The notes under the pieces were generated by a model. The model did no database searches and was not told the DNA's origin. It was given only the letters and a program-made list of their open reading frames with translations. A DNA stretch of 64,000 bases from Ruficoccus sp. ZRK36 (GTDB taxonomy: Bacteria; Verrucomicrobiota; Verrucomicrobiia; Opitutales; Cerasicoccaceae), in the NCBI RefSeq assembly GCF_019603315.1, contig NZ_CP080649.1, forward strand, positions 387,501 through 451,500, read 5' to 3'. Position 1 is the stretch's first letter. Each line of letters begins with the position of its first letter. The position numbers and the translations under genes were made by a program. Shown here piece by piece: positions 2,819-55,774 of the stretch.

Positions 2819-4300
2819 TTACAGTCCCAGAGCCTCGATAATTTCCTCGACCGGCTCAGTCCCGACGGACAGGCGGATCAGCTCGGGGTTCAGACCGCGA
2901 GCCTGCAGGTGACTGCGCCCCTCGGGCGTACTGACCAGATCGTAATGGGCCAGATACAGGAAGGGGCACATCATGGTGTAGCTGGTGCCAAAGCTCGGCC
3001 CCTTAACTACGCGCGCATGGTCATAAAAGTCCGCCAGAGGCCCGCTGAGATCAAAGGTCAGGATCGCACCGACTGAGGTATCGCTGCGGGCGATACGGCG
3101 GAAGTTCGCCGCCGATTTCCCCTCCAGCGGGGTAAAGAGCTTGGCCACTGCCGCCGAGCGGGAAAGGTGCTCAGCCAGAGCGAGGGCGTTGGCGTTGACT
3201 TGCGCAGCCACAGCAGGCATGTCCCCGATCTGCACGGCCAGCCGCGCGACGTCACCGGCATAGGGGGTCTCACACTCGACCGCTGCGCAGGCGCTCAACT
3301 CGTCATAAAAAGGGGACTCGGGGTTCAGGGCGAGCACGCCACTCATGACATCGCCCTCATGCGCGGCATACTTGGTCAGGCTCGTCACCAGCATGTCTGT
3401 ATGCGGCAGCAGGTCGACATTGACCAGTCCGGCCAGACTCGGATCGTAGATGCGGATCACCCCGTGCTTTTCACAGAGCTCACCCAGCCGATCCACATCG
3501 AGCGTGTGCACAAGCGGATTCGTCGGCAGCTCGGTCACGACTCCCGCCAACCGGTCCCCGTGCTCGGCAAAAATTTTCTCAATCGCCGCCCCGTCAAAAA
3601 CATCCGTCTGCACGATGACGTCCTCGTCCGGCCCGAGAAATTTCTCCAAGATCTTCATCGTGTCCAGGTAGAGCCAGCCGAGCTGGAGGTAGAGCCTGCG
3701 GCCACGCGGGGCCTGCACCTTTCGGGCTGCCTTGAGCGCCGCGTAAAAGGCGTTCATGCCGCTGCTGCACAGGTGCAGAGAAGGCGTGGGCAGATACTCC
3801 TGTAGTGTGGTGAGAACGGTTTCCTGAGCCCCGGCATCCTGGCGTACTTCAGGCTGAATCTTGTCGAGCAGACCTTCCTGCCGCAAGTACGCCTCGGACT
3901 GACGGGAGGAAATACTCGTCCCGGTGTGCTGGAGAAAGGCCTTGGCGGCATCGCAAGCGACGGGCGTATCCGGGAAGTGGATCAGGACAAAATCACCCTC
4001 CGGCACGATGGCAAACTCTGGCAGCTTCATCCAGGTGGCCATCTCGCGGGCAGACTGCTCGGAGGCGACCGCATAGACCGCTCGCCCGGCCAGCCCATGC
4101 TTTTTCGCCCCCTGTGCCGCGGCCTGCAGCACATAGTCGTGGAAGACAAAACGCGGGTACGCGAACTTGACCTCGGCCAGTGTCTCGGGGCGTTTTTCCT
4201 CGTAGCCCATGACGTCGCGCATCGTGGGCAGGCTCACGCAGACGGCGTGAACGCTGTCGGGGACGGGCTTACCGAGGGGATGGTGGGTCAGGTTGGACAC
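2819..4300 (-). CDS. Cys/Met-metabolism PLP-dependent enzyme (cystathionine gamma-synthase-like)
   Basis: A 493-residue fold-type I PLP enzyme. The SLTKYAAHEGD motif holds the predicted Schiff-base lysine (K310), and YDPSLAG contains the aspartate that would bind the pyridine nitrogen. These mark the trans-sulfuration (Cys_Met_Meta_PP) family, which makes cystathionine or homocysteine from activated homoserine, or cleaves such thioethers. About 160 residues precede the conserved core; similar long N-terminal extensions are known in fungal-type cystathionine gamma-synthases. The exact reaction is not settled by sequence. The chosen start is a GTG at 4300. The 186-bp leader to its right holds a GCGGAA-type hairpin and no riboswitch I could recognise. 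Confidence 0.8.
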   Translation of the reverse strand: MSNLTHHPLGKPVPDSVHAVCVSLPTMRDVMGYEEKRPETLAEVKFAYPRFVFHDYVLQAAAQGAKKHGLAGRAVYAVASEQSAREMATWMKLPEFAIVPEGDFVLIHFPDTPVACDAAKAFLQHTGTSISSRQSEAYLRQEGLLDKIQPEVRQDAGAQETVLTTLQEYLPTPSLHLCSSGMNAFYAALKAARKVQAPRGRRLYLQLGWLYLDTMKILEKFLGPDEDVIVQTDVFDGAAIEKIFAEHGDRLAGVVTELPTNPLVHTLDVDRLGELCEKHGVIRIYDPSLAGLVNVDLLPHTDMLVTSLTKYAAHEGDVMSGVLALNPESPFYDELSACAAVECETPYAGDVARLAVQIGDMPAVAAQVNANALALAEHLSRSAAVAKLFTPLEGKSAANFRRIARSDTSVGAILTFDLSGPLADFYDHARVVKGPSFGTSYTMMCPFLYLAHYDLVSTPEGRSHLQARGLNPELIRLSVGTEPVEEIIEALGL

Positions 4301-6282: not shown

Positions 6283-7545
6283 CTACTCGTCCACTTCGTT
6301 TTGGAATATCTGGTCGAGCGTCTGGCGTTGGCGGATGAGCCGCACGGTGCCCTTGAGCCCGACAAGCACCTCCGGCGCTTCAGGGAAAGAGTTGTAGTTC
6401 TTCGCCGTCATAGCTGCGCAATATGCGCCCGCCCCCTCGACCACGCAGAGGTCGCCGGGCAGTGTCTCGGGCAGTGTGCGGGGCTGGAGAGCCTCCGGAT
6501 CGTCGCTGCCCGTGGTCAGGATGTCCCCCGACTCGCAGCAGTGGCCGACCACGAGATAGTCCTGCTCAGGGCCAGCGGCACGCTCCTGCGCCGGGACGAT
6601 GACGATCGGATGCTGCGCCGCGTAGAGCGAGGGCCGCAGGATCTCCGTCATCCCGGAGTCGAGCTTGAGGAAGTTCATGCCGTCGGGGCCGCCGGTGCGG
6701 ACCACGTCGCGGACCGTCGCCAGCAGTGCCCCGGCATTAGCCATCAGGAACGTGCCGGGCTCGATCTCGAGCTTGAGCTTGCGGCCGGTTTCCTCCGCCA
6801 GCTTTTCAAACGCGGCCTTCACCGGTGCGCCGATCACCTGGAGGTCGGTAGCCTTTTCGGTCGCCATGCGGGCCACCTTGTAGCCGCCCCCGAGGTTGAG
6901 GGTCACGACATCGGGGAAACGCTTGACCGTCTCCAGGCTCATCAGCGCTACGCGCTCCCATACCTCCGGGTCGCTGCCCGACCCGATGTGCGTGTGGATG
7001 CGGATCACGCTCAGCCCGTACTTGGCGATGATCTTCTCGGCCTCGCCCAGCCACTCGTGCCAGATCCCGAAGCTCGAATTCGGGCCGCCGACGTTGGTCT
7101 TACCGGTACCACCGGAGCCGAGACCGGGGTTCACGCGCAGGCCACAGCGGCAGCCGGGGAAGAGCTGCCCGAAGCGCTCGAGCTGAGCCAGTGAGCAGGC
7201 GTTGAAGCGGATGCCGTGCTTGTAGAGCGGCGCAAAGTCTTCCGGGAACTCCTGCGTGCTGAGCGAAATGTGCTCGGCGGGGATGCCCGCGTGCAGCGCG
7301 CGGCGCACCTCGAAGCCGCTGGAGGCATCGATGTGCAGCCCGAGCCGGTGGAAGACACGCAGGATAGCAGCGTTCGGGGAGGCCTTCATGGCGAAGCGCA
7401 CCGTCAGCCCAAAGGCATTCGGAAAGGCCAGCGCAGCCTCGGCATGGCGCTTGAGCGATGCCTCATCGTACACGTAAACGGGAGTGCCGTAGTCTGCCGC
7501 AATCTGGCGGGCGAGCTCCGGCGTCAAAAACTTCAGGGTCTCCAT
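6283..7545 (-). CDS. lysA: Diaminopimelate decarboxylase
   Basis: A 420-residue fold-type III PLP decarboxylase catalysing the last step of lysine synthesis, meso-diaminopimelate to L-lysine. Visible landmarks are FAMKASPN near residue 52 (PLP lysine), [10 protein letters not shown] (the family HxGS motif), [11 protein letters not shown] (phosphate-binding glycine loop), [16 protein letters not shown] (the active-site cysteine supplied across the dimer) and [16 protein letters not shown] (the family GAY...NYN motif). Length fits the family. Ornithine and arginine decarboxylases share the fold, but CESGD plus the C-terminal GAY motif favours LysA. It stands alone between the beta-helix gene and the FkbH gene. 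Confidence 0.88.
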
Positions 7546-7653: not shown

Positions 7654-9873
7654 TCAGCTTGCAGTAACCACCTCAAAAAGGCCGTCTGGCACGGTGGGGA
7701 GTTCCTGTTTCTGAACCTCGAAGACAAAATGCCGAGGGGCTCCGGCCCGGATCTGCTCAGCGGGATCGAGTCGGGCGGCAAACCCGTAGCGGAAATAAAA
7801 ATCCGCCACCATGGCGTTTTTCTCCGTCGGGATATAGAGGCCGGTCACGCGGGTGACGCCGTTGTCCCGGGCGGCCCGCAAAAGCGTCGCCGCCATGTAG
7901 TCCGCAAGCCCGCGACCAATCACGCGGCAGCTCATTAAAAACGTATCGACCTCCCATACCTTCTCACCCCCCAGCGTGGCCACGACCACACCGACCAGGC
8001 CGCTGTCCCCGTAGGCATCCTTGAGCGAAAAAGCCTGCGTCCACGCCGTGGATGAGGACGCGAAACGCTCCAGCACCTCCATCGAGTGGCGACGCGTGGT
8101 CAGGTTAAACTGGTTGGTCTTGCCCACGAGCTGGGCGACGCGGGCGAGGTTATTTTCGTTAAACGGCCCGTGCGAGACGCGCATGCGCAGCTGGCGCAGA
8201 AAGGCGTTCACATCCGTGGCCGTGGAGGCGAGCTCACGGCGCGTGGCCTCGGCCCGGTAGGCGGCAGCGCGGGTGCGGTCCTCACCCGAAAGGCTAAGCG
8301 CCTCAAACCACCGCCCGCGATCAAGGATCTCGACGTAGCGCGCGGGGTCACTCCCCAGCTCCGGCACGGCGACCTCGGGCAACTCACGGCGCACGCGGGC
8401 GCGCTCCACCGGGCTATCATCGACAAAGACAAAACTCTCCAGCCCGAGGTTCAGCTCCTCAGCGATGCGGCGCAGGTTGGCGGGCTTATCCTCCCAGTTG
8501 GCGACAAAGGCCGCAAAATCGTCCAGCCCGAGCACCATGCCCTCGTGCTGCTCAAAAGGCAGGAGCGCGTCAGCCTCGTTGTTTTTCGAGCAGACGGCCA
8601 GCAGCACGCCGCGCTCCTTCAGCTCGCGGGCGTAGTACTGGAGCATGACAAAGGCTTCTCCATCGGCATGCGGCGGTCCCACACGAATGCCCGCCAGCCC
8701 GTCCTCCCCGATCACACCACCCCAGAGGGTATTGTCCAGATCGAGCACGAGCACTTTTTTGGCAGCACCCATTGCGGCCCTGATAAGGGACTGGCAAGCA
8801 TCGGCGAGCGGCGGCAGCGCGGCCATCGCCGGATGCTGCTTGTGCATCAGCCACTGGCGCGCATCGCTCCACTTACCGGGCGCGGCAGCGGCAAGCGCCT
8901 CCAGATCCATCAGCGTGACGCCCGCCGGAGCTTCACGGCGGAGGGCTTCGTTTAACCCACGCAGGCGACGGATGCGCCCGGCTGGGTCGCTCGCACTGAG
9001 CGCACCGCCAGACTCGGGCACGGGCAGATCAAAGGCGAACTGCAACACCGTGCAGGGGCATCGCTCCAGCAGGAGGCTCCAGAGATTTTTAAAATCATCC
9101 ACCAACTGCGCATCAGCCTCTACGGGCGCTTCCCCCTCTCCGGCAAAAGCCGGTAGCGCAGCATCCCGCCCATGCGTGGCGATCACCGTCACGTTGGGCT
9201 TAAACGCATACAGCCCCGAGTCGGGATCGAGTATCTCCTGCCGCCACGCGCCGTAGGGGCCTTCGTAGACCGTGGGTGCGAAACCATCCCGCACTGCTAC
9301 CATGCGCAGGCAGGCTGCAAAAAACGTCGTCGTGGACGAGCCAACAACCGCGACCTTTAGAGGCTGACCCGGGGCCGGGTGTTTACGGGAGAGCCTTTGA
9401 TAAAAACGATCTGCGCGGGTCCAGAAATCCACATCAGGTATGCCTAGGCGTAAGGCTTGCCGCAGAGACACATAGGCAGCATCCGGCTGCACCAAACGCC
9501 CCTGCACCCGAGCCAGCGCCAGCAGCGCCTCACCGGGCAGCCCGTAGCCGTCGGCCCCGGTAATCACTTCCCACACGGGGAGCGCAAGTGCGTCCTCGCC
9601 CAGATGCTCGCGGATGCAGGCCGTCAACCACAGCCCCATGGGCGTGGGGGCAGACTCCTTGGCCTGCTCGTCCAGCCAGGCGCGGTAAACCTCGTCCCCG
9701 CCGACATCGAGCGCATCAAAAAGCGCCTCGACCAACGGCAGGTCCACCGTCTCTCTCTCCGCGACAACCGGCCAGAGCGCCTTAAACGAGTCCGTCCCCG
9801 GCGCGGCACGCAGCAACGCGGTAAGCGCATCGGCATCGAGCTGGCGCAGGGCGGTTTCGGAGAGGTTTAACAT
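7654..9873 (-). CDS. FkbH-like HAD-IIIC family protein with C-terminal GNAT domain
   Basis: A 739-residue multidomain protein. Residues 1-165 are helical and TPR-like; about 170-365 is an alpha/beta region starting KVAVVGSSTT. At 374-393 lies the HAD motif I VLVLDLDNTLWGGVIGEDG (DxDxT), followed by FVFVDDSPVERARVR as a later HAD motif. The last 150 residues form a GNAT-like domain (GLVGVVVATLGG ... DFYFRYGF). FkbH enzymes dephosphorylate 1,3-bisphosphoglycerate and load a glyceryl unit on an ACP. It is the last gene of the operon, 18 bp after an ACP gene, which fits that job. In polysaccharide clusters related proteins supply acyl decorations, so glyceryl specificity is inferred. Confidence 0.85.
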   Translation of the reverse strand: MLNLSETALRQLDADALTALLRAAPGTDSFKALWPVVAERETVDLPLVEALFDALDVGGDEVYRAWLDEQAKESAPTPMGLWLTACIREHLGEDALALPVWEVITGADGYGLPGEALLALARVQGRLVQPDAAYVSLRQALRLGIPDVDFWTRADRFYQRLSRKHPAPGQPLKVAVVGSSTTTFFAACLRMVAVRDGFAPTVYEGPYGAWRQEILDPDSGLYAFKPNVTVIATHGRDAALPAFAGEGEAPVEADAQLVDDFKNLWSLLLERCPCTVLQFAFDLPVPESGGALSASDPAGRIRRLRGLNEALRREAPAGVTLMDLEALAAAAPGKWSDARQWLMHKQHPAMAALPPLADACQSLIRAAMGAAKKVLVLDLDNTLWGGVIGEDGLAGIRVGPPHADGEAFVMLQYYARELKERGVLLAVCSKNNEADALLPFEQHEGMVLGLDDFAAFVANWEDKPANLRRIAEELNLGLESFVFVDDSPVERARVRRELPEVAVPELGSDPARYVEILDRGRWFEALSLSGEDRTRAAAYRAEATRRELASTATDVNAFLRQLRMRVSHGPFNENNLARVAQLVGKTNQFNLTTRRHSMEVLERFASSSTAWTQAFSLKDAYGDSGLVGVVVATLGGEKVWEVDTFLMSCRVIGRGLADYMAATLLRAARDNGVTRVTGLYIPTEKNAMVADFYFRYGFAARLDPAEQIRAGAPRHFVFEVQKQELPTVPDGLFEVVTAS

Positions 9874-9890
9874 GACGAGCGGTTTCTCTA

Positions 9891-10115
9891 TTATAATAGA
9901 CGCAGGATGTCGGCCACGGACTTAATCTCTGCGACCTCGGCCATCTCCAGCTCCACCCCAAACTCCTGCTCCACGGCCAGAACGATCTGGACCATGGCGA
10001 CCGAGTCCCACTCGGGATGGTCTGCGGTGGAGTAGTCCTCCGTGAGCCGCAAGGCGGGCTCGTCGAGAACTTCACGAAAAATGCGCTGCAGGCGCGTCAG
10101 CTGGGCCGAAGACAT
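9891..10115 (-). CDS. Acyl carrier protein (partner of the FkbH protein)
   Basis: A 74-residue protein with the four-helix ACP pattern. The motif EWDSVAMVQIV holds the serine expected to carry 4'-phosphopantetheine; V-A-M after the serine replaces the usual L-x-x, as is common in stand-alone carriers of FkbH systems. The C-terminus IKSVADILRLL is the usual helix IV. It sits immediately upstream of the FkbH gene, so it is the likely carrier of the glyceryl or acyl group. A second ACP gene opens the operon at 13.4 kb, which suggests two carriers with different cargo. Confidence 0.88.
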   Translation of the reverse strand: MSSAQLTRLQRIFREVLDEPALRLTEDYSTADHPEWDSVAMVQIVLAVEQEFGVELEMAEVAEIKSVADILRLL

Positions 10116-10243
10116 GAAAGATGGAGTCAGAGGTGAACCGGGAATTGTTCCCTTCTATTAATAGAACCGTCCGCCACCGGGCAATGCCGGAAATGCAGGG
10201 CACCTGCACTAGAGCGCTTTCGGTTTAGCGCATCGCGGCGGCG

Positions 10244-10717
10244 CTACCGACGCCCGCCATCCGCAAGCGATGCCAGCGAGAGATCTCCCTCGCCTGCCTC
10301 GACCAGCTCGATGAGCAGACGGCGCTCATCCATAAACCACGCGATTTTGCGTCCGGAGAAGGCCGCCGCCGCGACAGGGGACGCCAGCGGAAACATCCCA
10401 CCGGCCCGCAGGTGCGCACAGGCCGCCTCGATGTCGGCCACCTCGTAGCAGAGGTGGTGCAGGCCACCGCCTTTGGACAGGGCGTTGCTGAGTTTGCTCT
10501 TTTCCGAGGCGGGGCTGATCAGCTCCAGCCAGCTATCGGCTCCCGGCAGGCGCAGGAACTGGACGTGCGCGGTCTGCACCGGGTCCTCGATCACCGGGGA
10601 CTCGATCCGGTAGCCCAGCAGCCCGGTGTAGCTGCTCGCGGCCTTCTCAATATCAGCCACCAGGTAGCCGGTATGGTGCAGGGTAAAGACAGGCGTGTCC
10701 ATGGCCGGGGCGCTCAT
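10244..10717 (-). CDS. VOC (glyoxalase/epimerase) superfamily protein
   Basis: A 157-residue cytoplasmic protein with two beta-alpha-beta-beta-beta modules. LHHTGYLVADIEKAASSY opens the first module and GGGLHHLCYEVADIEAAC the second, with WLELISP and LIELVEAGE ending them. The His and Glu residues at these places are the usual VOC metal ligands. The pattern is close to methylmalonyl-CoA epimerase, so an acyl-thioester epimerase or related role in the operon is plausible. The start was placed at the ATG at 10717, which has GAGG about 8 bases upstream, rather than an earlier in-frame codon inside the preceding gene. Confidence 0.78.
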   Translation of the reverse strand: MSAPAMDTPVFTLHHTGYLVADIEKAASSYTGLLGYRIESPVIEDPVQTAHVQFLRLPGADSWLELISPASEKSKLSNALSKGGGLHHLCYEVADIEAACAHLRAGGMFPLASPVAAAAFSGRKIAWFMDERRLLIELVEAGEGDLSLASLADGGRR

Positions 10718-10722
10718 CGCTT

Positions 10723-11799
10723 TCAATCCTCGGGAGAATAGTCCACCGGCGCCGCCGAGCAATCAGCGAGGGAGTCCGGCAGGCGAATCAGCGCAGCCCC
10801 CCAGGACAGCCCGACCCCAAAGGCCGCCACTGCAATGAGGGTGCCGGGCTTGAGGCGGCCACTGCGCCAGGCTTCAGCCAGCGCCATCGGCGAGGACGCA
10901 CCGCTCATATTGCCGACCTTCTCCATAAAGAAAAACTGCTGCTCCGGCCCGATACCCGCTTTCTTATAGATAAGGTCGAGCATCATCCGGTTGGCCTGGT
11001 GAAGGACGAGCAGGTCCAGCTCAGCGGGAGCGATTTGCCATTTCTCAAAGGCGCGCTTGAGGGCAGCCGGCACCTCGCGAATGGAAAACTGGAAAACGGC
11101 CGGGCCGTTCATATGCAGGTGCTCATCCGTCGTGACCGAGCCGGAGGTGTCCACGATTTCCCGCGAAGTCTCCGCCGTGCGCGGTCGACGCGCACCGGAA
11201 GCAGGGACCACCAGATGCTCGGCACCTGAGCCATCCGAGCCCAGCTCAAATCCGAGCAGCCCGTCCTCCCCGGTGGTCGGCTCCAGCAGGGCAGCCACGG
11301 CACCATCGCCGTGCAGCGGGACTAGCCCGCGATCCTGCGGGTGGATGATATGCGTCAGGGTATCGGCATTGATCAGGAGCACGCGCCCCTTTACTGTACC
11401 GGAGGCGATCAGGCCATTGGCCACGCTCAGGGCATAGGGAAAGGCCGAACACCCCAGGCCGATGTCGAAAGCACCACAAGTTTTCGGCAGGCCGAGACGA
11501 CCGTGCAGCACGCAGGCCGAAGCCGGGAGCTGGTAATCCCCGGTCTGGCTGGCAAATATAATCATCTCGATGGTGTCCGGCTCGATAGCGTGGGCGGCCA
11601 TCAGGCGTCGCGCCGCACACTCGGCCAGGTCAACGGAGGTCACATCCGGCTCGGCGATGCGGCGCTCGGTGATGCCGGAGAGCTTGGCAATGTCCGCGAC
11701 CTGCTTCTCACCAAAGCGGGCCGCCAGCTCCTCCTGCCCCAAGACACGGGGAGGCAGGCAGTATTGCATCGCAGTGATGGTGGCACGGGGAGTGGTCAT
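10723..11799 (-). CDS. 3-oxoacyl-ACP synthase III family protein (KAS III-like)
   Basis: A 358-residue thiolase-fold condensing enzyme. The Cys-His-Asn triad is visible as GLGCSAF (C117), LVLHQANRMM (H267) and EKVGNMSGASSP (N297), where housekeeping FabH has GNTSAAS. It would condense an acyl-CoA or acyl-ACP primer with an extender on an ACP. The start at 11799 (MTTPRATITA) has a GAGG-type ribosome site and begins 4 bp after the NeuD-like gene; the longer frame upstream would overlap that gene. In tetronate pathways a KAS III-like enzyme joins glyceryl-ACP to a beta-ketoacyl chain, and FkbH, ACP and KAS III occur together here. Substrate unknown. Confidence 0.88.
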   Translation of the reverse strand: MTTPRATITAMQYCLPPRVLGQEELAARFGEKQVADIAKLSGITERRIAEPDVTSVDLAECAARRLMAAHAIEPDTIEMIIFASQTGDYQLPASACVLHGRLGLPKTCGAFDIGLGCSAFPYALSVANGLIASGTVKGRVLLINADTLTHIIHPQDRGLVPLHGDGAVAALLEPTTGEDGLLGFELGSDGSGAEHLVVPASGARRPRTAETSREIVDTSGSVTTDEHLHMNGPAVFQFSIREVPAALKRAFEKWQIAPAELDLLVLHQANRMMLDLIYKKAGIGPEQQFFFMEKVGNMSGASSPMALAEAWRSGRLKPGTLIAVAAFGVGLSWGAALIRLPDSLADCSAAPVDYSPED

Positions 11800-11803
11800 A
11801 GGA

Positions 11804-12466
11804 TTAACCTCGCATAAAGGGTTTGGCCGGGACGCCGAGGACACGACTGTCGGCAGGCAGATGAGTAACCACCGCTGAGGCCGCCCCGATATTGGAACCA
11901 GCGCCGACCCTGCGGCCCGGAACGACTGTGGCGTGTGATCCCATAAAGACCCGCTCCCCCAGCTCAGCAAAACCGGTGATACCGCTGTAGGGGCTCAGCG
12001 TGGAGTAGTCGCCGATGCTGGCATCGTGGCCACAGCTGGCATAACAATTAAGAAAAACAAAATCCCCGACCTTGGCATCTGGAGCCACCAGAGAATACGG
12101 ACCCAGCACCACTCCCTCGCCGACAGCAGCATTGTGCCCCACCATGGCAGTCGGGTGGGCCAGAGTCAGAAAGCGTGCGCCCCGCTCTTTCAGGACGGGA
12201 CAAACCTTCGCCTTGATCGCGGGCGAGCCGATCGCGCAGACCAGCAGCTGGTGATCCGCAGGCTCATAGTCGGCGATGCTCCCGATAATGCCGCCCGGAT
12301 AGTCATATCCGTCGAGCGCGTGGGGGTCGTCGTCCAGAAAGCCCTTGGGGCGGCAGGTCGCGGCAAAGTGCGCGTCCACCCGGCGCTTGTGCTCCAGATA
12401 GTCCCAGACTTCACGGCCCATGCCGCCAGCCCCGACGATCAATACATCTGTTTTTGAGTTACTCAT
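11804..12466 (-). CDS. NeuD/PglD-like sugar O- or N-acyltransferase
   Basis: A 220-residue protein. The N-terminal part (VLIVGAGGMGREVWDYL) is the Rossmann-like PglD substrate-binding domain. From about residue 105 hexapeptide repeats form a left-handed beta helix (VGHNAAVGEGVVLG, VGDFVFLNCYASCGHDASIGDY, VGAGSNIGAASAV). Its HDASIGDY segment contains the catalytic-base histidine of the NeuD/PglD family. The family transfers acyl groups from CoA or ACP to nucleotide sugars or sialic acids. Its place among ACP and condensing enzymes suggests an acyl transfer to a sugar. Its ATG overlaps the SDR stop (ATGA). Confidence 0.87.
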   Translation of the reverse strand: MSNSKTDVLIVGAGGMGREVWDYLEHKRRVDAHFAATCRPKGFLDDDPHALDGYDYPGGIIGSIADYEPADHQLLVCAIGSPAIKAKVCPVLKERGARFLTLAHPTAMVGHNAAVGEGVVLGPYSLVAPDAKVGDFVFLNCYASCGHDASIGDYSTLSPYSGITGFAELGERVFMGSHATVVPGRRVGAGSNIGAASAVVTHLPADSRVLGVPAKPFMRG

Positions 12467-13233
12467 GTCAGGGTATAGCCGCCGTCCACGACGATGTTCT
12501 GCCCGGTGATCCAGGAAGCGCCCTCGCCGAGTAAAAAGAGGACCGTCGCGGCGACTTGCTCAGGCGTCCCCTGCCCGAGCGGATAAAGAGATTCATTACG
12601 GGCCAGGACGTCGGCCGACAACTGGGCGGCATTAGCCTCAGTCATGGCGGTCTTGACCTGGCCGGGGGAGACGACATTAGCGCGGATACGCTGGCGGGCC
12701 AGCTCCAGCGCCAGCACACGCACACTGGAGACAAGCGCCCCCTTCGAGCCTGCGTACAGGGCATTACCCACGGTGGCCACATCCGCCGCAATCGACCCCA
12801 GGTAAACCAACGAGGCCCCGGCGGAAAGTTTCTTGGCCTTCAGCAGAGCGGTGGTCAGCAGGCAGGGAGCGCGGTGGTTGACGGCAAACGTTTCCTCCCA
12901 CCCGGCATCATCGAGGAACTTGGCGGGCTTGATCCGGTGCAGGCCAGCGGCAAAGACCACCCCGTCGAGAGTGGGCACCGCATCGGCCAGAGAACGGCGC
13001 GCGTCAGCCTCGGTCAAGTCTCCGGCGAAGACCGTATGCCCCTCCCCCGGAAGCCCGGAGAGCGTCTGCTCCAGACGTGCCTGATCGCGGCCATTGAGCA
13101 CCAGCGCCGCTCCCGCAGCGGCGGCGGCCTGCGCACAGGCCAAACCGAGGCCCGATGAGGCTCCGCAGATCAACAGGTGCTTTTGAGCGAGATCGGCCAC
13201 GAGGAGGTTATTGTTTGGCTGCCACGGCTTCAC
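12463..13233 (-). CDS. SDR family oxidoreductase (FabG-like)
   Basis: A 256-residue short-chain dehydrogenase. ICGASSGLGLA is the TGxxxGxG-type cofactor loop, VVFAAGLH corresponds to the NAG motif, and YLGSIAADVATVGNALYAGSKGAL holds the catalytic Ser, Tyr and Lys (YxxxK). The end WITGQNIVVDGGYTLT is typical of FabG-like SDRs. Expected job: NAD(P)H reduction of a keto group, probably on an ACP-bound intermediate. The start is uncertain: a GTG at 13233 overlaps the ACP gene by 26 bases, and a GTG at 13200 would leave 7 bases; neither has a clear ribosome site. Confidence 0.85.
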   Translation of the reverse strand: MKPWQPNNNLLVADLAQKHLLICGASSGLGLACAQAAAAAGAALVLNGRDQARLEQTLSGLPGEGHTVFAGDLTEADARRSLADAVPTLDGVVFAAGLHRIKPAKFLDDAGWEETFAVNHRAPCLLTTALLKAKKLSAGASLVYLGSIAADVATVGNALYAGSKGALVSSVRVLALELARQRIRANVVSPGQVKTAMTEANAAQLSADVLARNESLYPLGQGTPEQVAATVLFLLGEGASWITGQNIVVDGGYTLT

Positions 13234-13438
13234 TGAGCTTACCGAGCGTACCGGCAGCCAGAAGTTCGTCGCCGGGGATTTCTACGCCGTACTCACCATC
13301 GATCATGGCCAGAATGCTCAGGAACGCCAGGGAGTCCCACAGCTCAAGCTCACGGAAACGGGTTTCAGCGGTGAGCTGGGCGGCGTCCAGACCGTCAATG
13401 GCATCCGCGAAGTTCTGGATAAAGGCTTGGGTGTCCAT
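13208..13438 (-). CDS. Acyl carrier protein (first gene of the FkbH operon)
   Basis: A 76-residue ACP. The ELWDSLAFLSILAMID segment has the DSL motif whose serine takes the phosphopantetheine arm. Helix IV is GTLGKLSEAVAAK. It differs clearly from the ACP at 9.9 kb, so the two are not recent copies. The start was placed at the ATG at 13438; a TTG five codons upstream is the alternative. It is the first gene of a seven-gene minus-strand set with gaps under 130 bp and several overlaps. Upstream is an AT-rich region with a TATAAG -10 candidate. Confidence 0.85.
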   Translation of the reverse strand: MDTQAFIQNFADAIDGLDAAQLTAETRFRELELWDSLAFLSILAMIDGEYGVEIPGDELLAAGTLGKLSEAVAAKQ

Positions 13439-46240: not shown

Positions 46241-47587
46241 TCACTGGCACAGCGCTTGCCGCAGGGCCCGAATATCAATCTTCCCCCTCCCGGTTCGGGG
46301 GATTACATCCAGCCGCCGCACATGCAGGCGCCGACTCAATCGCGGAAACGCTGCGCTCAGGCAACTCGCTATCTGCTCGACCTCCAGGCCCCCCTCATAG
46401 GCCAGGTAGACCCGCTCGCCAGCAGGCTCATAAAAGGCCGCTACCTGCCGCACATGAGCTTCGCGGGCGGCCACCTGCTCCAGACGAGCCAGATCGAGCC
46501 GCACCCCCGCGCACTTGACGATCCGGTCGGCACGCCCGCGGATCACCAGCCCACCCTCGTCCGTAAAGCTAACCCGATCGGCGAGCGCAATGCTTGCGGC
46601 TCCGCATTTCTCACGCCCACGGCCATATCCGCTAACCGCACGAGACGTAACCTTCAGCCGTCCGTCAGCAGTTTGCCCCAACCGAACGCCGTCCATCACC
46701 GTGCCCACAGAGTCACCCCGCAGCCCCGCCTGAGCATCCCGGTCATAGGCGATGCCGCCGGTCTCACTGGAGCCATAAAAATTATGCACGAGCAGACCTG
46801 TCGTTTCGTGGAACCGGCGAGCCAACTCCGGGCTCAATGCCGCAGCCGCCGAGATGACGAGTCGCAGGGGTTTGAGAGAAAGTGCGCCTGTTCGCGCGAT
46901 ACCTTCCAACACCGCAGGCACCGTCGGCAAAACCGTCGCGCCCGTCCGGGCAACTTCCTCCGCAATCACATGCGGGAAGGCAGCGCTCCCGATCACCACA
47001 GGCACGCCATACGCCAGCAACGGCAGGACGAGATTTCCCAGCGCGTAGGAATGCGCAAAGGGCAGCAAGGCAAAATTCCGGTCACGCGCATCGAAGGCCA
47101 TCGTCGAGAGAATGTTCTCGGCATCTGCGCACAGCTCGGCCTCGGCAAAAGGAATTGGCTTGGGAGCTCCAGTCGAGCCCGAGGTCAGCTTTATCAGGGC
47201 CACATCCGACTTCCAGCGCCGCGATCCAGGCTGAGCGACAATCCCTGCGCTCGTTATCTGCAGGACCGTGCCGAGCAGTTCAGCGGCCGTCTCCAGCTCC
47301 GAGTCCGGCGCGCCATTATCCAGCGGCACCACGACTGCGCCCACTCTGCGCAGAGCCAGAAATGCAGCCAGCCAATCCGCACCATTGGGAAGGCGGAGCG
47401 TGACTGCGCGGCGGCGCAGCGCGTAGCCCCGCAGCCGCTCTTCCCATTCGCGGGCGAGTTGTTCCAGCCCGGCAAAGCTCACCGTCTCTCCGCCAGCCGC
47501 ATCGATCACCGCAGGTTTATCCTTAAACTGCCGACAGAAGCGCTCCCATGCCAGCTGCATGGGCTCCCTTTCCATTGCGTGCGTCAT
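46241..47587 (-). CDS. AMP-forming acyl/aryl ligase of the aryl polyene cluster
   Basis: A 448-residue adenylate-forming enzyme. LIKLTSGSTGAPKPIPF is the P-loop, NFYGSSETGGIAY the A5 motif, RGRADRIVKCAGVRLD the A8 hinge and GRGKIDI the A10 lysine. Such enzymes (ApeH/XanA2-like) activate the aromatic starter acid and load it on an ACP. Here the starter is probably a hydroxybenzoate made by the chorismatase in the same cluster. It is the last gene of the operon and its start overlaps the dehydratase stop by 4 bases. ACP versus CoA as acceptor is not decided by sequence. Confidence 0.85.
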   Translation of the reverse strand: MTHAMEREPMQLAWERFCRQFKDKPAVIDAAGGETVSFAGLEQLAREWEERLRGYALRRRAVTLRLPNGADWLAAFLALRRVGAVVVPLDNGAPDSELETAAELLGTVLQITSAGIVAQPGSRRWKSDVALIKLTSGSTGAPKPIPFAEAELCADAENILSTMAFDARDRNFALLPFAHSYALGNLVLPLLAYGVPVVIGSAAFPHVIAEEVARTGATVLPTVPAVLEGIARTGALSLKPLRLVISAAAALSPELARRFHETTGLLVHNFYGSSETGGIAYDRDAQAGLRGDSVGTVMDGVRLGQTADGRLKVTSRAVSGYGRGREKCGAASIALADRVSFTDEGGLVIRGRADRIVKCAGVRLDLARLEQVAAREAHVRQVAAFYEPAGERVYLAYEGGLEVEQIASCLSAAFPRLSRRLHVRRLDVIPRTGRGKIDIRALRQALCQ

Positions 47588-48003
47588 GAGGCGTAAATCG
47601 TCAACTGCCCCCCTGCGAGCAGGTTCCCGGCAGCATCCTCCAGGTGCCCATTAAAGCGAAAAACGCCCGCCTCACTCCACGTATCCAGTTTTGAATACAC
47701 GCGCATCATTTCTCCACACGGGAGTGGTCGAGGCCCCATCGTCCATCGTGTTGCTTTAATCAGACGACCCGAGCGCCAACCCCGCTCGCGATGATGCCAG
47801 CCGACAAAAACACCGGCAGCCTGCGCCACGACTTCAAGCGACCATGCCTGAGAGGCCACCATCGTGGCCGGGGCCCCTGAGTCCGGGACAAACACTGCCT
47901 CAGCCTGCACAAGATCATCTCCCATCTCGACAATCCGCCGCAGCAGGCACATCGGTCCGCGGTGCGGGATTAATTCTTCAATAGGTGGAAAAGCGTCAGA
48001 CAT
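47584..48003 (-). CDS. Hot-dog 3-hydroxyacyl-ACP dehydratase (ApeP-like)
   Basis: A 139-residue hot-dog protein. IEELIPHRGPMCLLRRIVEMG is the FabA/Z-like motif of the ApeP group of aryl polyene dehydratases. In that group the active pair works with a partner such as ApeI; the cluster carries an ApeI-like gene at 51.7 kb. It would remove water from the 3-hydroxyacyl-ACP in each chain-extension round. It overlaps its neighbours by 4 and 8 bases. Confidence 0.82.
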   Translation of the reverse strand: MSDAFPPIEELIPHRGPMCLLRRIVEMGDDLVQAEAVFVPDSGAPATMVASQAWSLEVVAQAAGVFVGWHHRERGWRSGRLIKATRWTMGPRPLPCGEMMRVYSKLDTWSEAGVFRFNGHLEDAAGNLLAGGQLTIYAS

Positions 48004-50326
48004 CGTTTCGACTATCTTGTGTGGATGAATCCCCTTGTGTCCAACCTATCAGCTCCGCACCCATCCAGGCAAAGAAAACAGACACGGAGACCACGATACC
48101 CAGATCACTCAGTGCCTTGATATCACTCATACCCAGCAGGGCAAAGGCGCTTGCCGTGGTCAGCGCAGAGACGCGAACGGATACCGGCGCCTGACCGCGA
48201 AAATGCACCGCAAAGGCTCCGTAGTCCAAGCCGAGGCAATAGGCGAGAATCGCCCCGATAACCGCCAGCAGACTTAGTCCGCCACCAGTCAGCGTAGCCA
48301 CAGCCAGCCCGAAGGTCACTGCGAAGGCAGGCAGCAATGCGACCGTCACCCCATCACGCCAGCCGAACACCGCGACCAAAACAACGACTACCGCCAGAAA
48401 GCCGATAGCCGCATTTTTCAGAACAGCCCGGCGGGCCGTCTCCAGGATGTGGTTGATGGCGACCCGCCCGTCGACCACATGCGTCGTCGACTCCAGTGAC
48501 GCCGGGACCTCGACACGATCCCGTACCCCAAACGTCCCGACCCACTCCGCACCGTCCTCCATCAGGGCAGCTCGCATGGGACCGCGCAGACGGGCTGCCA
48601 GCTCGCGGATCGCCTCGCCCGCGGCCGGATCAGCCACGGCCTCGGGCATATCGTCGAGGCTATCCACAAACCCCTCGAAGGCGGAGGAGTCAAAGCCCTG
48701 CGACTCGAATTCCTTCAGCAGTGCCTCCCCGTAGGCTTCCCGCTGTTGACTGAAAACTTCCCATGCCTCGCTGCCATCCGCTCTCCCGAGCAGTGAGGCC
48801 GGGCCCGCCAGCTCCACCCCGCTTGAGCGAACATCGTTTAGCTGTTGAAGCAGCGTCACCGGGCTCTCGGCGACGGTGAACCACTGGCTCTTGATCTGAG
48901 ACTGCGTCTGCCCAAACTCTTTTAGTAATGCCTCATAGCGATCCATCGTCGCCCCCACAGGGATCTGGTAGCTTTTGATCTCGTCGTCGAAGCGATGCTG
49001 AACGAGCAGAGCAGTCAGCGCACCGGCCCAGAGCAAACCTGGCACCACCAGCCAGGCACGGGGGAGCGGCCTTCTAAATTTGAGATATAGCGGTTTCCGT
49101 AGAGGTGAGCCGTCGCCGCTTGGAGCCATGTATGGCAGGATCCACCGCACCGCAGCCAGCGCCCCCAGCAGGCCAGCGGGCACCATCACCCCTGCCTGCT
49201 GAATGGCGGGCAAAGGCGCCAACCAGAGAAACGCCAACCCCAGGCACGAGGACAAGCAACCGGCCAGTAGTGGTTTTCGGATACACTTCCACGATCTAAG
49301 CAGACTCCCGCTATCGCGGTTTGCCACCAGATGCACGGCATAGTCCACGGCCAGACCGAGAACCACACTGGCGATCCCCAGCGCGAGCACGTGGATTTTC
49401 CCAAAAACAAGCAACCCCACCACCACCGATGCCAGTACAGACACCAGCAGCGGCACAAGCGCCAGCAGCAGATCTGCGAAGCGGCGCACGAGCAGCACCA
49501 GCAGGATTACCACCACCGCAAACATGGCGACATTCAGCACCGTGACCTCATGCCGAGTCAGTTCCTCGCTCAGCTCGGCGATTTCGTAAACACCGCCACT
49601 TTCTATCTGCGCATCCGGCCAGCGCTCGGCGAGGGAGGCGCACACAGCATCCACCGCCTCAGCGATTTTTCGCTGTCCGGCAGGGCTGAGCGAATCCGCC
49701 TCCACGGGCAGCCAGGCCAGGACCGCACCGCTATCCCCCACCGCGGTCCCTGGCAGAGCCTCACGGGCACGCGGGATCAGCAGCCACGGATCTTTCGGCA
49801 CTAGATCCGTGTAGGCGGTGGCCTCGGATCGGTTCAAAAAGCTATCCAGCTCGGCCACCGTTTCCTGAGCCAACCATTGGTTGAAGGCCTCAGGCGGTTG
49901 CCCTGTTTCCTGAAAGCGTGACCAGTGCGTCTGCAGCCAGCCGGGCGCGAAGAGCGTTTCCCGGTGCTCGTAGATAAAGCGCCCCAGCTCCTTCATCGGC
50001 TCAGGGTCGTCAGGGAAAAATACCTCTCCGAAAACTGGCTGCGCACCGGCCGCCTCTCGTATGGTCACGCGAACCTCTTCCGCATCGGCTGACGGGGCCA
50101 CAACCTTCAGCAGGACACTGTCGGTGGCCATCGACTGGAGCTTATCCCGGATCTCGTGCGTCCGGGCAGACTCCACCAGCTCGGGCAGCGAGCTGCGGAT
50201 ATCCTCATTGAGAACCTCTTCCCAATCACGCGTCAGCAGGTACGCCAGGGGCAGCCCGATCAGCGCCAGCACCGTCACCATCAGCGTGAATACCCGGCGG
50301 TGCACACTAAGCCTCTCCGCACTCAT
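47996..50326 (-). CDS. MMPL/RND family exporter
   Basis: A 776-residue inner-membrane protein of the MMPL family with two halves, each one TM helix, a periplasmic loop and a five-TM bundle (for example LLLALVPLLVSVLASVVVGLLVFG; LGLAVDYAVHLVAN). The GLAVDYAVH and GLDYGAFAVH segments carry the family's proton-relay Asp-Tyr. Aryl polyene clusters usually encode such an exporter to carry the lipid-linked pigment toward the outer membrane. It overlaps the LolA-like gene by 4 bases, which suits a shared export path. Confidence 0.86.
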   Translation of the reverse strand: MSAERLSVHRRVFTLMVTVLALIGLPLAYLLTRDWEEVLNEDIRSSLPELVESARTHEIRDKLQSMATDSVLLKVVAPSADAEEVRVTIREAAGAQPVFGEVFFPDDPEPMKELGRFIYEHRETLFAPGWLQTHWSRFQETGQPPEAFNQWLAQETVAELDSFLNRSEATAYTDLVPKDPWLLIPRAREALPGTAVGDSGAVLAWLPVEADSLSPAGQRKIAEAVDAVCASLAERWPDAQIESGGVYEIAELSEELTRHEVTVLNVAMFAVVVILLVLLVRRFADLLLALVPLLVSVLASVVVGLLVFGKIHVLALGIASVVLGLAVDYAVHLVANRDSGSLLRSWKCIRKPLLAGCLSSCLGLAFLWLAPLPAIQQAGVMVPAGLLGALAAVRWILPYMAPSGDGSPLRKPLYLKFRRPLPRAWLVVPGLLWAGALTALLVQHRFDDEIKSYQIPVGATMDRYEALLKEFGQTQSQIKSQWFTVAESPVTLLQQLNDVRSSGVELAGPASLLGRADGSEAWEVFSQQREAYGEALLKEFESQGFDSSAFEGFVDSLDDMPEAVADPAAGEAIRELAARLRGPMRAALMEDGAEWVGTFGVRDRVEVPASLESTTHVVDGRVAINHILETARRAVLKNAAIGFLAVVVVLVAVFGWRDGVTVALLPAFAVTFGLAVATLTGGGLSLLAVIGAILAYCLGLDYGAFAVHFRGQAPVSVRVSALTTASAFALLGMSDIKALSDLGIVVSVSVFFAWMGAELIGWTQGDSSTQDSRNDV

Positions 50327-51006
50327 AGCTGCGCGGGAGGCTGTCCGAACTGCTCACGGGGCACCCATGTCAGCTCTTCAAAAAAGTAGCGGCGCACCAC
50401 CCCGTCACTGAGATATACTTTGACCGCGGCCACCCGCCCCTTTTCCACAGTGACCTCGACGCGCTTGAGGGATCGCTCCAGCTCAGGAGCTTGCGGGTAG
50501 AGCACAAAGCCGTCCGCTTGTGGCTCGATCCGCCAATCCCTGCGCAGCGCCTCCTGATCCCCGCCGATCAGATCCCGCAGCACGCGCACATACCCGGCCT
50601 CTGCGGGCAGACGCTGCCGGTGCCCCCCGGAGTCCTCAAAGTATATGCCGTCCTCCAGCAGGAGCAGGCGCTCCAAGCTGGACCCCGTATAGCACAGGAT
50701 CAGCTCCCCATTTGGGGCACGATCAATGGTGCCACTGAAACGCTTGGGAAACCGTCGAAAGGGAAATTGCCGCTCCTCGCTGAAGGCAACCCGCGCGACC
50801 TGCTCTCCCTCCGGCCAGGCCAAGGCCTCAAGCTCGGGCGCAGCAGCGGTCGTCTCCGCCTCCGCAGAAGCGTCATCGGCCGCGGTCAGATTTTTCTGCG
50901 CATGAAGCGGACAGGCAGCCAGCAGCAGTAGCATCAGCAGCAGGCATCCGCGCCGCCGTTCCTGAGACGGCGAAAACGGCGACTGAGTCGGGCGACAGAA
51001 AGACAT
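50323..51006 (-). CDS. LolA-like outer-membrane lipoprotein carrier
   Basis: A 227-residue protein. The hydrophobic LLLMLLLLAACPLHA stretch near residue 25 looks like a signal peptide. The mature part (FRRFPKRFSGTIDRAPNGELILCYTG, LVLYPQ-like and VEVTVEKGRVAAVKVYLSDG) has the LolA-type half-barrel pattern seen in the LolA-like gene of aryl polyene clusters. It may carry the polyene or its lipid anchor across the periplasm. The start at 51006 implies a 73-base overlap with the glycosyltransferase gene; no shorter start keeps a full signal peptide. Confidence 0.72.
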   Translation of the reverse strand: MSFCRPTQSPFSPSQERRRGCLLLMLLLLAACPLHAQKNLTAADDASAEAETTAAAPELEALAWPEGEQVARVAFSEERQFPFRRFPKRFSGTIDRAPNGELILCYTGSSLERLLLLEDGIYFEDSGGHRQRLPAEAGYVRVLRDLIGGDQEALRRDWRIEPQADGFVLYPQAPELERSLKRVEVTVEKGRVAAVKVYLSDGVVRRYFFEELTWVPREQFGQPPAQL

Positions 51007-51725
51007 CTTGGTAAAAAAGCGAGCAGGAGCCTGATATGGAGCCAGACCATAAAGACATTGTCACGCAGATAGTGAAAGTGGCTCACCCCGCCCTCTTCGG
51101 CGGAGACATAGCGCACGGGCACGCGATGCTTCACGGGTGGTACTCCAGCCCAGAACAACCGCACCGCGACCTCCGGGTCGAAATCATAGCGCCGGGCAAA
51201 CTGCGTCTGCGCCATCACCTGCCGCAGGGCGGCTACCGGGTAGACCCGCATACCGAAAAGCGGATCTGCCAGACCTCCCCAGAGGGTCTCGAACTGTGTC
51301 AGCCCGATGCTCAGCTGCCGCCCGGCCAGCCGCACCCATGGCGCGTCCGGGCCAAAGTCCGGCTGCCCCATGACAACTGCCTCAAGCTGCCCGCAAGATT
51401 GCTCCATCAGCTCGGGCACAGACTCCGCCGGGTGCTGCCCGTCGGCATCCATCAGTAGCAGGTGTGTAAACCCCGCCTGTGCGGCCTCATCCGCAGCCCT
51501 GGCCGCCGTGCCGCCCTTACCGCGGTTTTCCTCACTGACAAAGACGCGCAGCCCTGGCCAGTCCTCCGGGTGCTCCAGGAAACACGCATGTGCCCCGTCC
51601 GTGGACCCATCGATGAAGAGCCAGACCGGCTGCCAGCAGGCCAGCGCCGCCTCGACCGTCCGCCTCAGGATGGGGCCGGTATTATAGGAGGGCAGGACAA
51701 GCACGTGGGTCGAGGAGCTATTCAT
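50934..51725 (-). CDS. Glycosyltransferase family 2 protein
   Basis: A 263-residue GT-A enzyme. VLPSYNTGPILRRTVEAAL is the donor site start and LLMDADGQHP the DxD metal motif. Two basic, hydrophobic segments at the C-terminus (FMVWLHIRLLLAFLPRCL) suggest membrane contact. GT2 enzymes with this layout occur in aryl polyene clusters and may add a sugar to the head group or anchor. The start at ATG 51725 was preferred because the frame upstream overlaps the dehydratase gene. Donor and acceptor unknown. Confidence 0.82.
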   Translation of the reverse strand: MNSSSTHVLVLPSYNTGPILRRTVEAALACWQPVWLFIDGSTDGAHACFLEHPEDWPGLRVFVSEENRGKGGTAARAADEAAQAGFTHLLLMDADGQHPAESVPELMEQSCGQLEAVVMGQPDFGPDAPWVRLAGRQLSIGLTQFETLWGGLADPLFGMRVYPVAALRQVMAQTQFARRYDFDPEVAVRLFWAGVPPVKHRVPVRYVSAEEGGVSHFHYLRDNVFMVWLHIRLLLAFLPRCLSVARLSRRFRRLRNGGADACC

Positions 51726-52017
51726 GCGGCACCCAAAGCATATCCGCATATACCCCCTCAGCGTCAACCACCTGTGCACGCCAGCCGCGTTTATCCGGCC
51801 TCAGGTTCAGCTCGACCGTGCGGCCCGGCTTCAGCTCACGCAGAAATTTCCCCTGCCGCAGCTCCCAGCTCTCGGCACCCTTAATCTGGCGCTCCAGCGC
51901 AGCCAGCGCCCACTGCACCTGCACAGCCGCAGGCACGAGCGGATACCCCGGGAAGTGGCCCTCGCAGCAGCCATTGGTCTCGGTCACCTCGATGCGCTCT
52001 GTTATTACTTCGGCCAT
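51718..52017 (-). CDS. Small hot-dog dehydratase (ApeI-like)
   Basis: A 99-residue FabA/Z-like protein. CCEGHFPGYPLVPAAVQVQWAL carries the GHFPGxP motif with the catalytic His. The usual Glu or Asp of the second position is not obvious, as in ApeI-type partners. It would act with the ApeP-like dehydratase on the growing polyene. It overlaps the acyltransferase stop by 13 bases and the glycosyltransferase by 8. Confidence 0.8.
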   Translation of the reverse strand: MAEVITERIEVTETNGCCEGHFPGYPLVPAAVQVQWALAALERQIKGAESWELRQGKFLRELKPGRTVELNLRPDKRGWRAQVVDAEGVYADMLWVPHE

Positions 52018-52790
52018 TGGGCAAAGTCCTCCGACGTAAACTGCTCACGGTAGAAGCTCTCCAGCCTGCGGGCGAATACGGCTGGCTGCTCATCCTCTAC
52101 CGGCTGAAAAGCTTTCAGATAGCTGTACTCACAGTGGAAGGGTAAAGCGTAGCGGCCGAAGAGCCCTCCCCGCTTACTCAGCAAACCGGAGGGGTTGCGG
52201 ATGATCAATGCACAGACAGGTGCGTGCGTCCGCTTAGCCACCCAGGCAAACCCGGCCTTGAACCGGTTGAGAGGAGGCACCTCGGTGCGCGTGCCCTCTG
52301 GAAAGACTAACACCTGACGGCCGTCGTTAAGCGCCTTCTCCATCGCATGCAGCGACTCCATACCGTCGTCGTTGGCGATAAATCCCCCCTGCCTGATCAT
52401 GTAGCGGAAAAACGGATTACGGCTCAGTCCGGCCTTAAAGACGCAGACGACCTCGGGGATCTCAATCAACAAGAAGAGCGCATCCAGCAGCCCCGTATGG
52501 TTGGCCACGATCAGGCACGGCCCCTTCGGCAAGCGATCCATATCGCGAAATCGCACACGCCCGACGCCCGTGATTTCAAGCAGGCGCGTGTATCGCCTCA
52601 TCGAGTCTGCCAGGATACGCCGGACAAGACCGGGGTGGCGCTTCTCGACGCCTAGAGGTAGCAGCACCGCGCAAAGCACATTCAGGGCGAACGCCCACAG
52701 CCCAAACAGGAGCACGATCGCGACATACCGTAGATAGCTAAAGGTCGAGGATGCTTTTTGCGGTGACGGGCCGGACATGACAATAACCAT
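52005..52790 (-). CDS. PlsC-like 1-acylglycerol-3-phosphate acyltransferase family protein
   Basis: A 261-residue membrane-bound acyltransferase. An N-terminal TM helix (VAIVLLFGLWAFALNVLCAVLL) is followed by VANHTGLLDALFLL, the HX4D-type catalytic motif, and LVFPEGTRTEVPPLNRFK, the EGTR motif. Aryl polyene clusters have such enzymes, which may attach the polyene chain to a glycerolipid at the inner face of the inner membrane. It may start at MVIV (52790) or MSGP (52778). Confidence 0.87.
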   Translation of the reverse strand: MVIVMSGPSPQKASSTFSYLRYVAIVLLFGLWAFALNVLCAVLLPLGVEKRHPGLVRRILADSMRRYTRLLEITGVGRVRFRDMDRLPKGPCLIVANHTGLLDALFLLIEIPEVVCVFKAGLSRNPFFRYMIRQGGFIANDDGMESLHAMEKALNDGRQVLVFPEGTRTEVPPLNRFKAGFAWVAKRTHAPVCALIIRNPSGLLSKRGGLFGRYALPFHCEYSYLKAFQPVEDEQPAVFARRLESFYREQFTSEDFAQWPK

Positions 52791-52798
52791 TAAACCTC

Positions 52799-53683
52799 CT
52801 AGGAGTCGGAGGGGTTGAGCGGGAGAAAATTAAACCACTGGAGTGGTTGCTGGCGCAAGAGCGCTTCCAGCCAATGCAAGACCTCCTGAAAATGCTCGTA
52901 CCCGCTGCGAATATCCTCCCGGTGATTTTTCCCTGAGGGCACAAAGGGGTGGCATGCATGCACCTCGTACCCCTTAGCCGCCGGAAGCGCCAGGCAGAAC
53001 TGCACGGGCCGCTGATAGAGAGCCGCCAGGCGGTAAATCGTAACGGGAAAAAGCCGCCGCTCCCCCAGGAAATCGAAGGCCGCAGTCTTCGAGGTATGCT
53101 CCAGTCGATCGCACTGCAGGGCCAGAGTCTTACCCGCCTCCAGCGCGTCACGCAGGCTAAAGATCACCTCGCGCGGATCGTTGACCCACATAATTTCGAC
53201 CTGACTGGACGCCTGCCGCATCAGCCGATCAATGTCTGCCGAGTTACGCACGCGCTGCCTCACCATGCAGATGGGGCGGTTGAACTGCCCCAGCCCAAAG
53301 CCCAGCAGATCCGAGGCGCCGACGTGAAAGGTCCCGACCAGGATGGGTTCGCTCCCGAGAATTAAGCTGCCCCGCTGTCGGCTGTCCTCATCCGCCCACT
53401 CCATGGGGACAGATTCGCCACGCCCGGCGCGCAGCTTAACCAGAAGCATGTCAGCCAAAGCTCGAAAATGCCGGAACGAGTCCCGCCAGCTCACAGGCCG
53501 ATCCATCATCAACTCCAGATACTGCCGGGAGTACAGGCGCTGTTTCTTCATCAGGCAAAAGGCGATGAAGGTCCCCGTCTGCATCATCGCCTCAAACAGC
53601 CAGCCCGGCAGCCAGCGGTCGAACGCATACATAAAGAAATAGCCACCCCAGGGGCCGGGGTTTCTGGGTTCTTTTACGTCCAT
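52799..53683 (-). CDS. LpxL/HtrB-like lauroyl acyltransferase family protein
   Basis: A 294-residue protein. The motif GTFHVGASDLLG holds the HX4D-type catalytic pair, and RICMVRQR-like and QCDRLEHTSKTAAFDFLGERRLFPVT segments follow as in LpxL/HtrB acyltransferases (last part the D-x-x-G/F-F loop). With the PlsC-like protein it could couple the finished chain to a lipid acceptor. It overlaps the chain-length-factor gene by 10 bases. Confidence 0.82.
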   Translation of the reverse strand: MDVKEPRNPGPWGGYFFMYAFDRWLPGWLFEAMMQTGTFIAFCLMKKQRLYSRQYLELMMDRPVSWRDSFRHFRALADMLLVKLRAGRGESVPMEWADEDSRQRGSLILGSEPILVGTFHVGASDLLGFGLGQFNRPICMVRQRVRNSADIDRLMRQASSQVEIMWVNDPREVIFSLRDALEAGKTLALQCDRLEHTSKTAAFDFLGERRLFPVTIYRLAALYQRPVQFCLALPAAKGYEVHACHPFVPSGKNHREDIRSGYEHFQEVLHWLEALLRQQPLQWFNFLPLNPSDS

Positions 53684-55435: not shown

Positions 55436-55466
55436 AAAACAGAAATAAGCTTATCGCGCAGAAAGC

Positions 55467-55733: not shown

Positions 55734-55774
55734 AAGCAACCGCTAGAAATAGCGAACACACAAATAGCCACAAG

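Follow-up and report, generated by a model that had tools for sequence, protein, structure and literature searches.

Here we describe a compact operon of the verrucomicrobial bacterium Ruficoccus sp. ZRK36 in which an FkbH-type enzyme stands together with two acyl carrier proteins (ACPa and ACPb), a 3-ketoacyl-ACP synthase III (KAS III), a short-chain dehydrogenase/reductase (SDR), a VOC protein and a NeuD-type sugar N-acyltransferase. It lies within a 64,000-nucleotide stretch of DNA (contig NZ_CP080649.1, positions 387,501 to 451,500; hereafter the window) and is seemingly a version, unstudied so far and spread across phyla, of the cassettes behind the O-antigen side groups of some bacteria. 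A preliminary description made from the sequence alone had listed seven genes at 7654-13438; re-reading the open reading frames from the window sequence, with Pfam and NCBIfam scans for family assignment, recovered all of them there on the minus strand, in the order ACPa, SDR, NeuD, KAS III, VOC, ACPb, FkbH from 13438 down to 7654 (Table 1). A gap of 128 bp separates VOC from ACPb, and a promoter and terminator scan of the predicted operon gave no signal above shuffles and nothing convincing. Its GC content (0.64) is similar to that of the neighbouring DNA and so gives no sign of recent foreign origin.

The FkbH protein (739 residues) consists of a variable N-terminal stretch, an FkbH_N domain, a HAD-IIIC domain and a GNAT-like C-terminus; it scores above the curated cut-off of the FkbH domain model and carries the HAD-IIIC motif, which places it in the FkbH family. 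Loss of its catalytic residues would have told against the preliminary description; instead, the motifs DLDNTLWGG, SKNN, VDD and SCRVIG are intact, with D378, D380, S429-K430, D485 and S648-C649-R650 invariant among nine sequences, and planctomycete FkbHs carry the HAD motif as DLDNTAWGG. The only relative in the PDB found by sequence is 3slr, the uncharacterized protein BF1531. Also in agreement with that description, the two ACPs are unlike each other, alignable over 21 residues only, and KAS III has an intact catalytic triad, invariant in the 26 members of its clade (see below). The closest structures to KAS III are FabH-type, and it is distinct from the genome's housekeeping FabH (G000:C1:3413489-3414469, where G000 is this genome). 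NeuD has VioB (7txp), WeeI (4m9c), PerB (4ea7) and PglD (3bss) as PDB relatives. The VOC protein reaches 58 bits against the methylmalonyl-CoA epimerase model TIGR03081, below its cut-off of 115, and aligns to the epimerase structures 6qh4 and 3rmu, a kinship in sequence with solved enzymes of this kind.

Table 1. Genes of the operon, in window coordinates
Product	Position	Strand	Family evidence
ACPa, acyl carrier protein	13208..13438	-	PF00550 E 5e-9; DSL serine
SDR, putative FabG-like ketoreductase	12463..13200	-	GTG start; PF13561 (adh_short_C2) E 3e-47; YxxxK present
NeuD/PglD/VioB-type left-handed beta-helix amino-sugar N-acyltransferase	11804..12466	-	TIGR03570 168 bits (cut-off 161)
KAS III (clade b)	10723..11799	-	PF08541/PF08545 (ACP_syn_III N + C); triad C117-H267-N297
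VOC protein, methylmalonyl-CoA-epimerase-like, optional part	10244..10717	-	Glyoxalase_4 E 3e-21
ACPb, putative carrier protein of FkbH	9891..10115	-	PF00550 E 7e-9
FkbH-type glyceryl-ACP synthase (predicted)	7654..9873	-	TIGR01686 279 bits, E 4e-83 (cut-off 147); PF21211

Distribution and block structure

Relatives of the cassette were found via FkbH and, independently, by searching named genomes with a KAS III profile, and their neighbours were mapped with home-made profiles. The cassette recurs in Verrucomicrobiota, Acidobacteriota, Chloroflexota, Chlorobi, Planctomycetes and Lentisphaerae, and because the set recurs across phyla its combination of genes is not a chance one. A frequent order, NeuD-ACPa-KASIII-[SDR]-[VOC]-ACPb-FkbH, is present in Verrucomicrobiota, Holophagaceae, Acidobacteriales, Oscillochloris, Chlorobiaceae and Lentisphaerae, while the planctomycete loci show KASIII-ACPb-FkbH at the start of a contig. 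Within a tree of 123 KAS III rows, the window's enzyme belongs to a clade (clade b) of 26 rows with an SH-aLRT support of 100, and FkbH lies within 6 kb of KAS III in 20 of these. The six exceptions comprise three loci cut by contig ends, one 9-kb contig that lacks FkbH (L127) and two Chloroflexi loci (L118, L119) near a DegT gene, in which an AMP ligase replaces FkbH and AcpS and FabD accompany the synthase. A second, separate KAS III lineage, mostly from gut Opitutales, is also found with FkbH. Elsewhere a MaoC dehydratase follows the SDR (L126), whereas versions of five genes (G001, which is L112, and L117, L124 and L130) dispense with SDR and VOC and retain both ACPs; the core is therefore FkbH, the two ACPs, KAS III and NeuD. 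Another locus, L027 of genome G017, holds two complete convergent KAS III-ACP-NeuD cassettes, one with FkbH and the other with an AMP ligase.

ACPb adjoins FkbH in relatives, as expected of a dedicated stand-alone partner, and in a Lentisphaerae locus (L132:11882-17026) the two form a single fusion protein with ACPb at the N-terminal end (47% identity over 70 residues), DegT and PglF being the next genes. The two ACPs also differ in how well they are conserved: identity to the window proteins is 53% for KAS III and 62% for ACPb in G017, against 27% for NeuD and 28% for ACPa, and in G005 the corresponding values are 54% and 54% against 29% and 25%. Across loci, the identity of ACPa follows that of NeuD and not that of FkbH. 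We read this as two blocks that diverge separately, one for loading (FkbH-ACPb-KASIII) and one for delivery (ACPa-NeuD).

Probable link to an amino-sugar pathway

According to the preliminary description, no sugar-nucleotide gene is attached to the operon; this holds within the window but not for the genome, where adjoining genes at ~814-818 kb of G000:C1, ~420 kb from the cassette, encode a PglF-like protein, a WecA-like transferase and a DegT aminotransferase. There is no NeuD (PglD) at that locus. The nearest model for the DegT protein is that of the LegC family (376 bits, below the cut-off of 420) and for the PglF-like dehydratase PseB-type models, likewise below cut-off; among the top PDB matches of DegT are the Campylobacter PglE aminotransferases 1o61 and 4ztc. 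The whole resembles the PglF-PglE-PglD pathway to bacillosamine, in that PglF-like and PglE/LegC-like proteins are encoded in the genome and the PglD-family acyltransferase comes from the operon. PglD, however, uses acetyl-CoA, whereas the dedicated ACPs of the window suggest an ACP-bound donor.

A genome-wide search with TIGR03570 for full-length NeuD found one each in this genome and in G001, G002 and G005, always inside the FkbH cassette. In five of the six members of the same family that lack FkbH (G003 and G006-G009), NeuD lies instead within ~8 kb of DegT, in a cassette (L076, L192-L195) whose other genes encode an AMP ligase, ACP, iron alcohol dehydrogenase and LuxE-LuxC fusion, the last two identified by family scan in G003 and G006 and by eye in G008. 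This set presumably resembles the rfbKLMNO tetronate genes of Vibrio cholerae O1. In the remaining member, G004, the NeuDs are elsewhere and not near DegT. The FkbH cassette, for its part, is next to DegT or one gene away in G005 and G030, and the module adjoins a PglE/LegC-type aminotransferase in these two as well as in L114, L126 and L132, the last also with a PglF-type dehydratase. Since DegT is accompanied by NeuD with the other cassette in G003 and G006-G009 and by the FkbH cassette in G005, G030 and L132, one amino sugar seems to be served by more than one kind of acyl cassette. The earlier suggestion that a short acyl unit is passed to a sugar thus gains support, both from the PglE/LegC-type neighbours in relatives and from NeuD being the only full-length PglD candidate in its own genome.

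Proposed route and competing explanations

We consider it probable that the cassette is an acyl-donor unit for the amino sugar of a surface polysaccharide, with FkbH, KAS III, SDR and NeuD acting in that order. FkbH would take 1,3-bisphosphoglycerate, an intermediate of glycolysis, remove phosphate and load D-glyceryl on ACPb; KAS III would then join the glyceryl group from ACPb to malonyl-ACPa, giving 3-oxo-4,5-dihydroxypentanoyl-ACPa, which the SDR would reduce to 3,4,5-trihydroxypentanoyl-ACPa, and the VOC protein, a possible acyl epimerase, may set a stereocentre. ACPa would carry the finished acyl group and be paired with NeuD, the latter acting as the missing PglD by moving the group to the 4-amino position of UDP-4-amino-4,6-dideoxy-GlcNAc. 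This sugar would be made by the distant PglF-like and DegT proteins, and the WecA-like transferase beside DegT may start the glycan. A starter supplied by FkbH is supported by the association of KAS III clade b with FkbH, by the ACPb-FkbH fusion and by the proposal of a FabH-like protein that uses glyceryl-ACP in tetronate pathways (PMC7489565). From these gene families we infer one round of malonyl extension, and thus a 3,4,5-trihydroxypentanoyl product, or its 3-oxo form where the SDR is absent.

The nearest known system, the wfpC-wfpG genes of Flavobacterium psychrophilum, together with homologues of PglE and PglF, accounts for a 3,5-dihydroxyhexanoyl R1 group on the O-polysaccharide (PMC6519341); wfpC-G is predicted to place a hydroxyacyl group on UDP-Qui2NAc4N, and the R group varies between strains (PMC6519341). 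Shared with the window are a 3-ketoacyl-ACP synthase, a reductase, a dedicated ACP and a PglD-type acyltransferase, along with PglE/PglF-type genes in the genome. The Flavobacterium set differs in that no FkbH is named, there are two synthases and the product is solved, whereas the window cassette has a predicted product, a second, FkbH-linked ACP and, in this genome, is unlinked to the sugar genes; it lies outside the polysaccharide cluster here and close to it in G005, G030 and L132. Our literature search found no publication joining FkbH with an O-antigen, most subscription journals being outside its coverage, and in the literature covered we found no report of this cassette as an O-antigen cassette with a solved product, which would have undercut the preliminary description.

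A role in flagellin glycans is possible in some lineages. In Campylobacter jejuni, a species whose flagellin can carry a dimethylglyceric-acid derivative of pseudaminic acid (Pse), an fkbH-domain gene (cj1302) lies in the flagellin-modification locus; the glycerate group is not ascribed to cj1302 in that work, and mutation of cj1295 abolishes it (PMC7099621). The locus resembles the window cassette in having an FkbH-domain gene among those for glycan modification, here in a species with a flagellin able to bear a glycerate-derived group. In genome G021 (L030:14299-18250) an FkbH-ACPb pair stands beside a flagellin gene, with no KAS III or NeuD partners nearby.

Several points weigh against the acyl-donor reading. 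For FkbH, the choice of substrate is an assumption drawn from its family. The SDR is absent from some versions, so that reduction there would fall to the housekeeping FabG or not be needed. The tryptophan at the CoA-binding position of the housekeeping FabH is replaced in all 26 members of the KAS III clade, but because KAS IIIs outside the clade have lost it too, we downgraded this loss to weak support for an ACP donor. The score of DegT below the LegC cut-off leaves its exact product uncertain, and with cassette and sugar loci 420 kb apart in this genome their co-expression is only assumed. Partial matches to TIGR03570 represent other hexapeptide acyltransferases of the genome that could serve the amino sugar, and G004, G017 and G046 deviate from the pattern of one NeuD per genome.

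The main competing explanation, which we regard as unlikely, is N-glyceroyl transfer without any extension: FkbH would load ACPb, KAS III would shuttle the group to ACPa or be bypassed, NeuD would add a plain glyceroyl and the VOC protein would epimerise its alpha carbon. N-glyceroyl sugars exist, as in the Pse5Am7Gra of Tannerella forsythia, for which the gene of the N-glyceroyl step 'remains elusive' (PMC6120980), and the versions lacking the SDR would suit such a scheme. The VOC gene, moreover, is also present in the AMP-ligase/LuxC cassettes of G006-G009 (four loci), so that its substrate may be common to both kinds of cassette, fitting a shared alpha-hydroxyacyl group. A single malonyl extension, however, better fits the full Cys-His-Asn condensing triad throughout the clade, the FabD and AcpS that accompany the same clade in Chloroflexi, and the SDRs and MaoC dehydratase found with it elsewhere, the MaoC of L126 being consistent with a 3-hydroxyacyl intermediate.

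Alternatively, the operon might make two separate acyl groups, KAS III, SDR, ACPa and NeuD producing and transferring a 3-hydroxybutyryl group from acetyl-CoA while FkbH and ACPb provide glyceryl for another acceptor. KAS III-SDR-ACP-NeuD without FkbH is indeed the arrangement of the Flavobacterium R-group genes (PMC6519341) and occurs at further loci such as L151 and L166. Such a division of labour is nonetheless quite improbable, as KAS III clade b tracks FkbH and not the SDR, the operon holds a single transferase, and FkbH, ACPb and KAS III evolve as one block. Very improbable, in our judgement, is that the SDR oxidises glyceryl-ACPb towards a hydroxymalonyl-ACP extender for KAS III: FkbH and an ACP do start methoxymalonyl-ACP synthesis (PMC7489565), but the operon has none of the acyl-CoA dehydrogenase, 3-hydroxyacyl-CoA dehydrogenase and O-methyltransferase of such operons, and its SDR is dispensable.

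The preliminary description had also entertained a tetronate-like unit. Tetronate glycerate-utilisation operons (e.g., tetromadurin Mad7/Mad8/Mad16) have a set of five genes, and the operon of the window has counterparts to three of these, namely the FkbH-like enzyme, the stand-alone ACP and the FabH-like protein; a FabH-like protein using glyceryl-ACP has been proposed in tetronate pathways (PMC7489565). That the product is a tetronate or other secreted small molecule, with NeuD acting on something else, is scarcely credible, since family scans of the operon proteins gave no Agg4-like acyltransferase, Agg5-like hydrolase or polyketide synthase, a sugar N-acyltransferase and a second ACP stand in their place, almost every clade locus uncut by a contig end has NeuD, and DegT or PglF is linked in several. 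We class the operon with the acyl R-group cassettes, as an FkbH-primed variant, rather than with the tetronate operons.

The acyl-donor reading extends to a wider proposal for which we see the case as evenly balanced: an undescribed N-acylation route in which 1,3-bisphosphoglycerate would prime a two-ACP miniature fatty-acid system, placing 3,4,5-trihydroxypentanoyl (or 3-oxo) amides on 4-amino-4,6-dideoxy sugars in the surface glycans of six or more bacterial groups, the cassette being exchanged for other acyl cassettes that serve the same sugar pathway. It would offer a way, open to test, for glycerate-derived groups to reach surface sugars. Swapping of FkbH/KAS III and AMP-ligase/LuxC cassettes around one amino-sugar pathway would further predict, on gene content alone, that surface glycans are diverse in phyla that have received little study.

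Boundaries and other features of the window

Downstream of the cassette lies lysA (6283-7545), which we considered as a module gene and rejected, as it is the only close diaminopimelate-decarboxylase homologue in the genome and is 89-91% identical to its counterparts in the sister genomes G001 and G002, against 60-67% for FkbH and NeuD. An assignment as exosortase-A decarboxylase was likewise rejected, the score against TIGR03099 being 106 bits where the cut-off is 478. G003, a sister genome without FkbH, has lysA and DUF985-feoAB only 80 bp apart, whereas in the window the same interval spans 6.1 kb and is occupied by the cassette; the cassette is therefore a unit gained or lost at this site.

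Immediately left of the window, 7.5 kb of the contig (G000:C1 ~380-387.5 kb) is masked (N), and genes there are hidden from view. Within the window, a pyridoxal-phosphate-dependent enzyme on the minus strand at 2819-4300, conserved in the genus, is closest to BesB (L-2-amino-4-chloropent-4-enoate dechlorinase/desaturase), at 377 bits against a cut-off of 800. Finally, the minus-strand region at 46241-58627 looks aryl-polyene-like when judged by eye from the lengths and N-termini of its open reading frames, with a putative AMP ligase, small hotdog-like protein, large exporter, glycosyltransferase, ACP, ketosynthase-like protein and flavoprotein.

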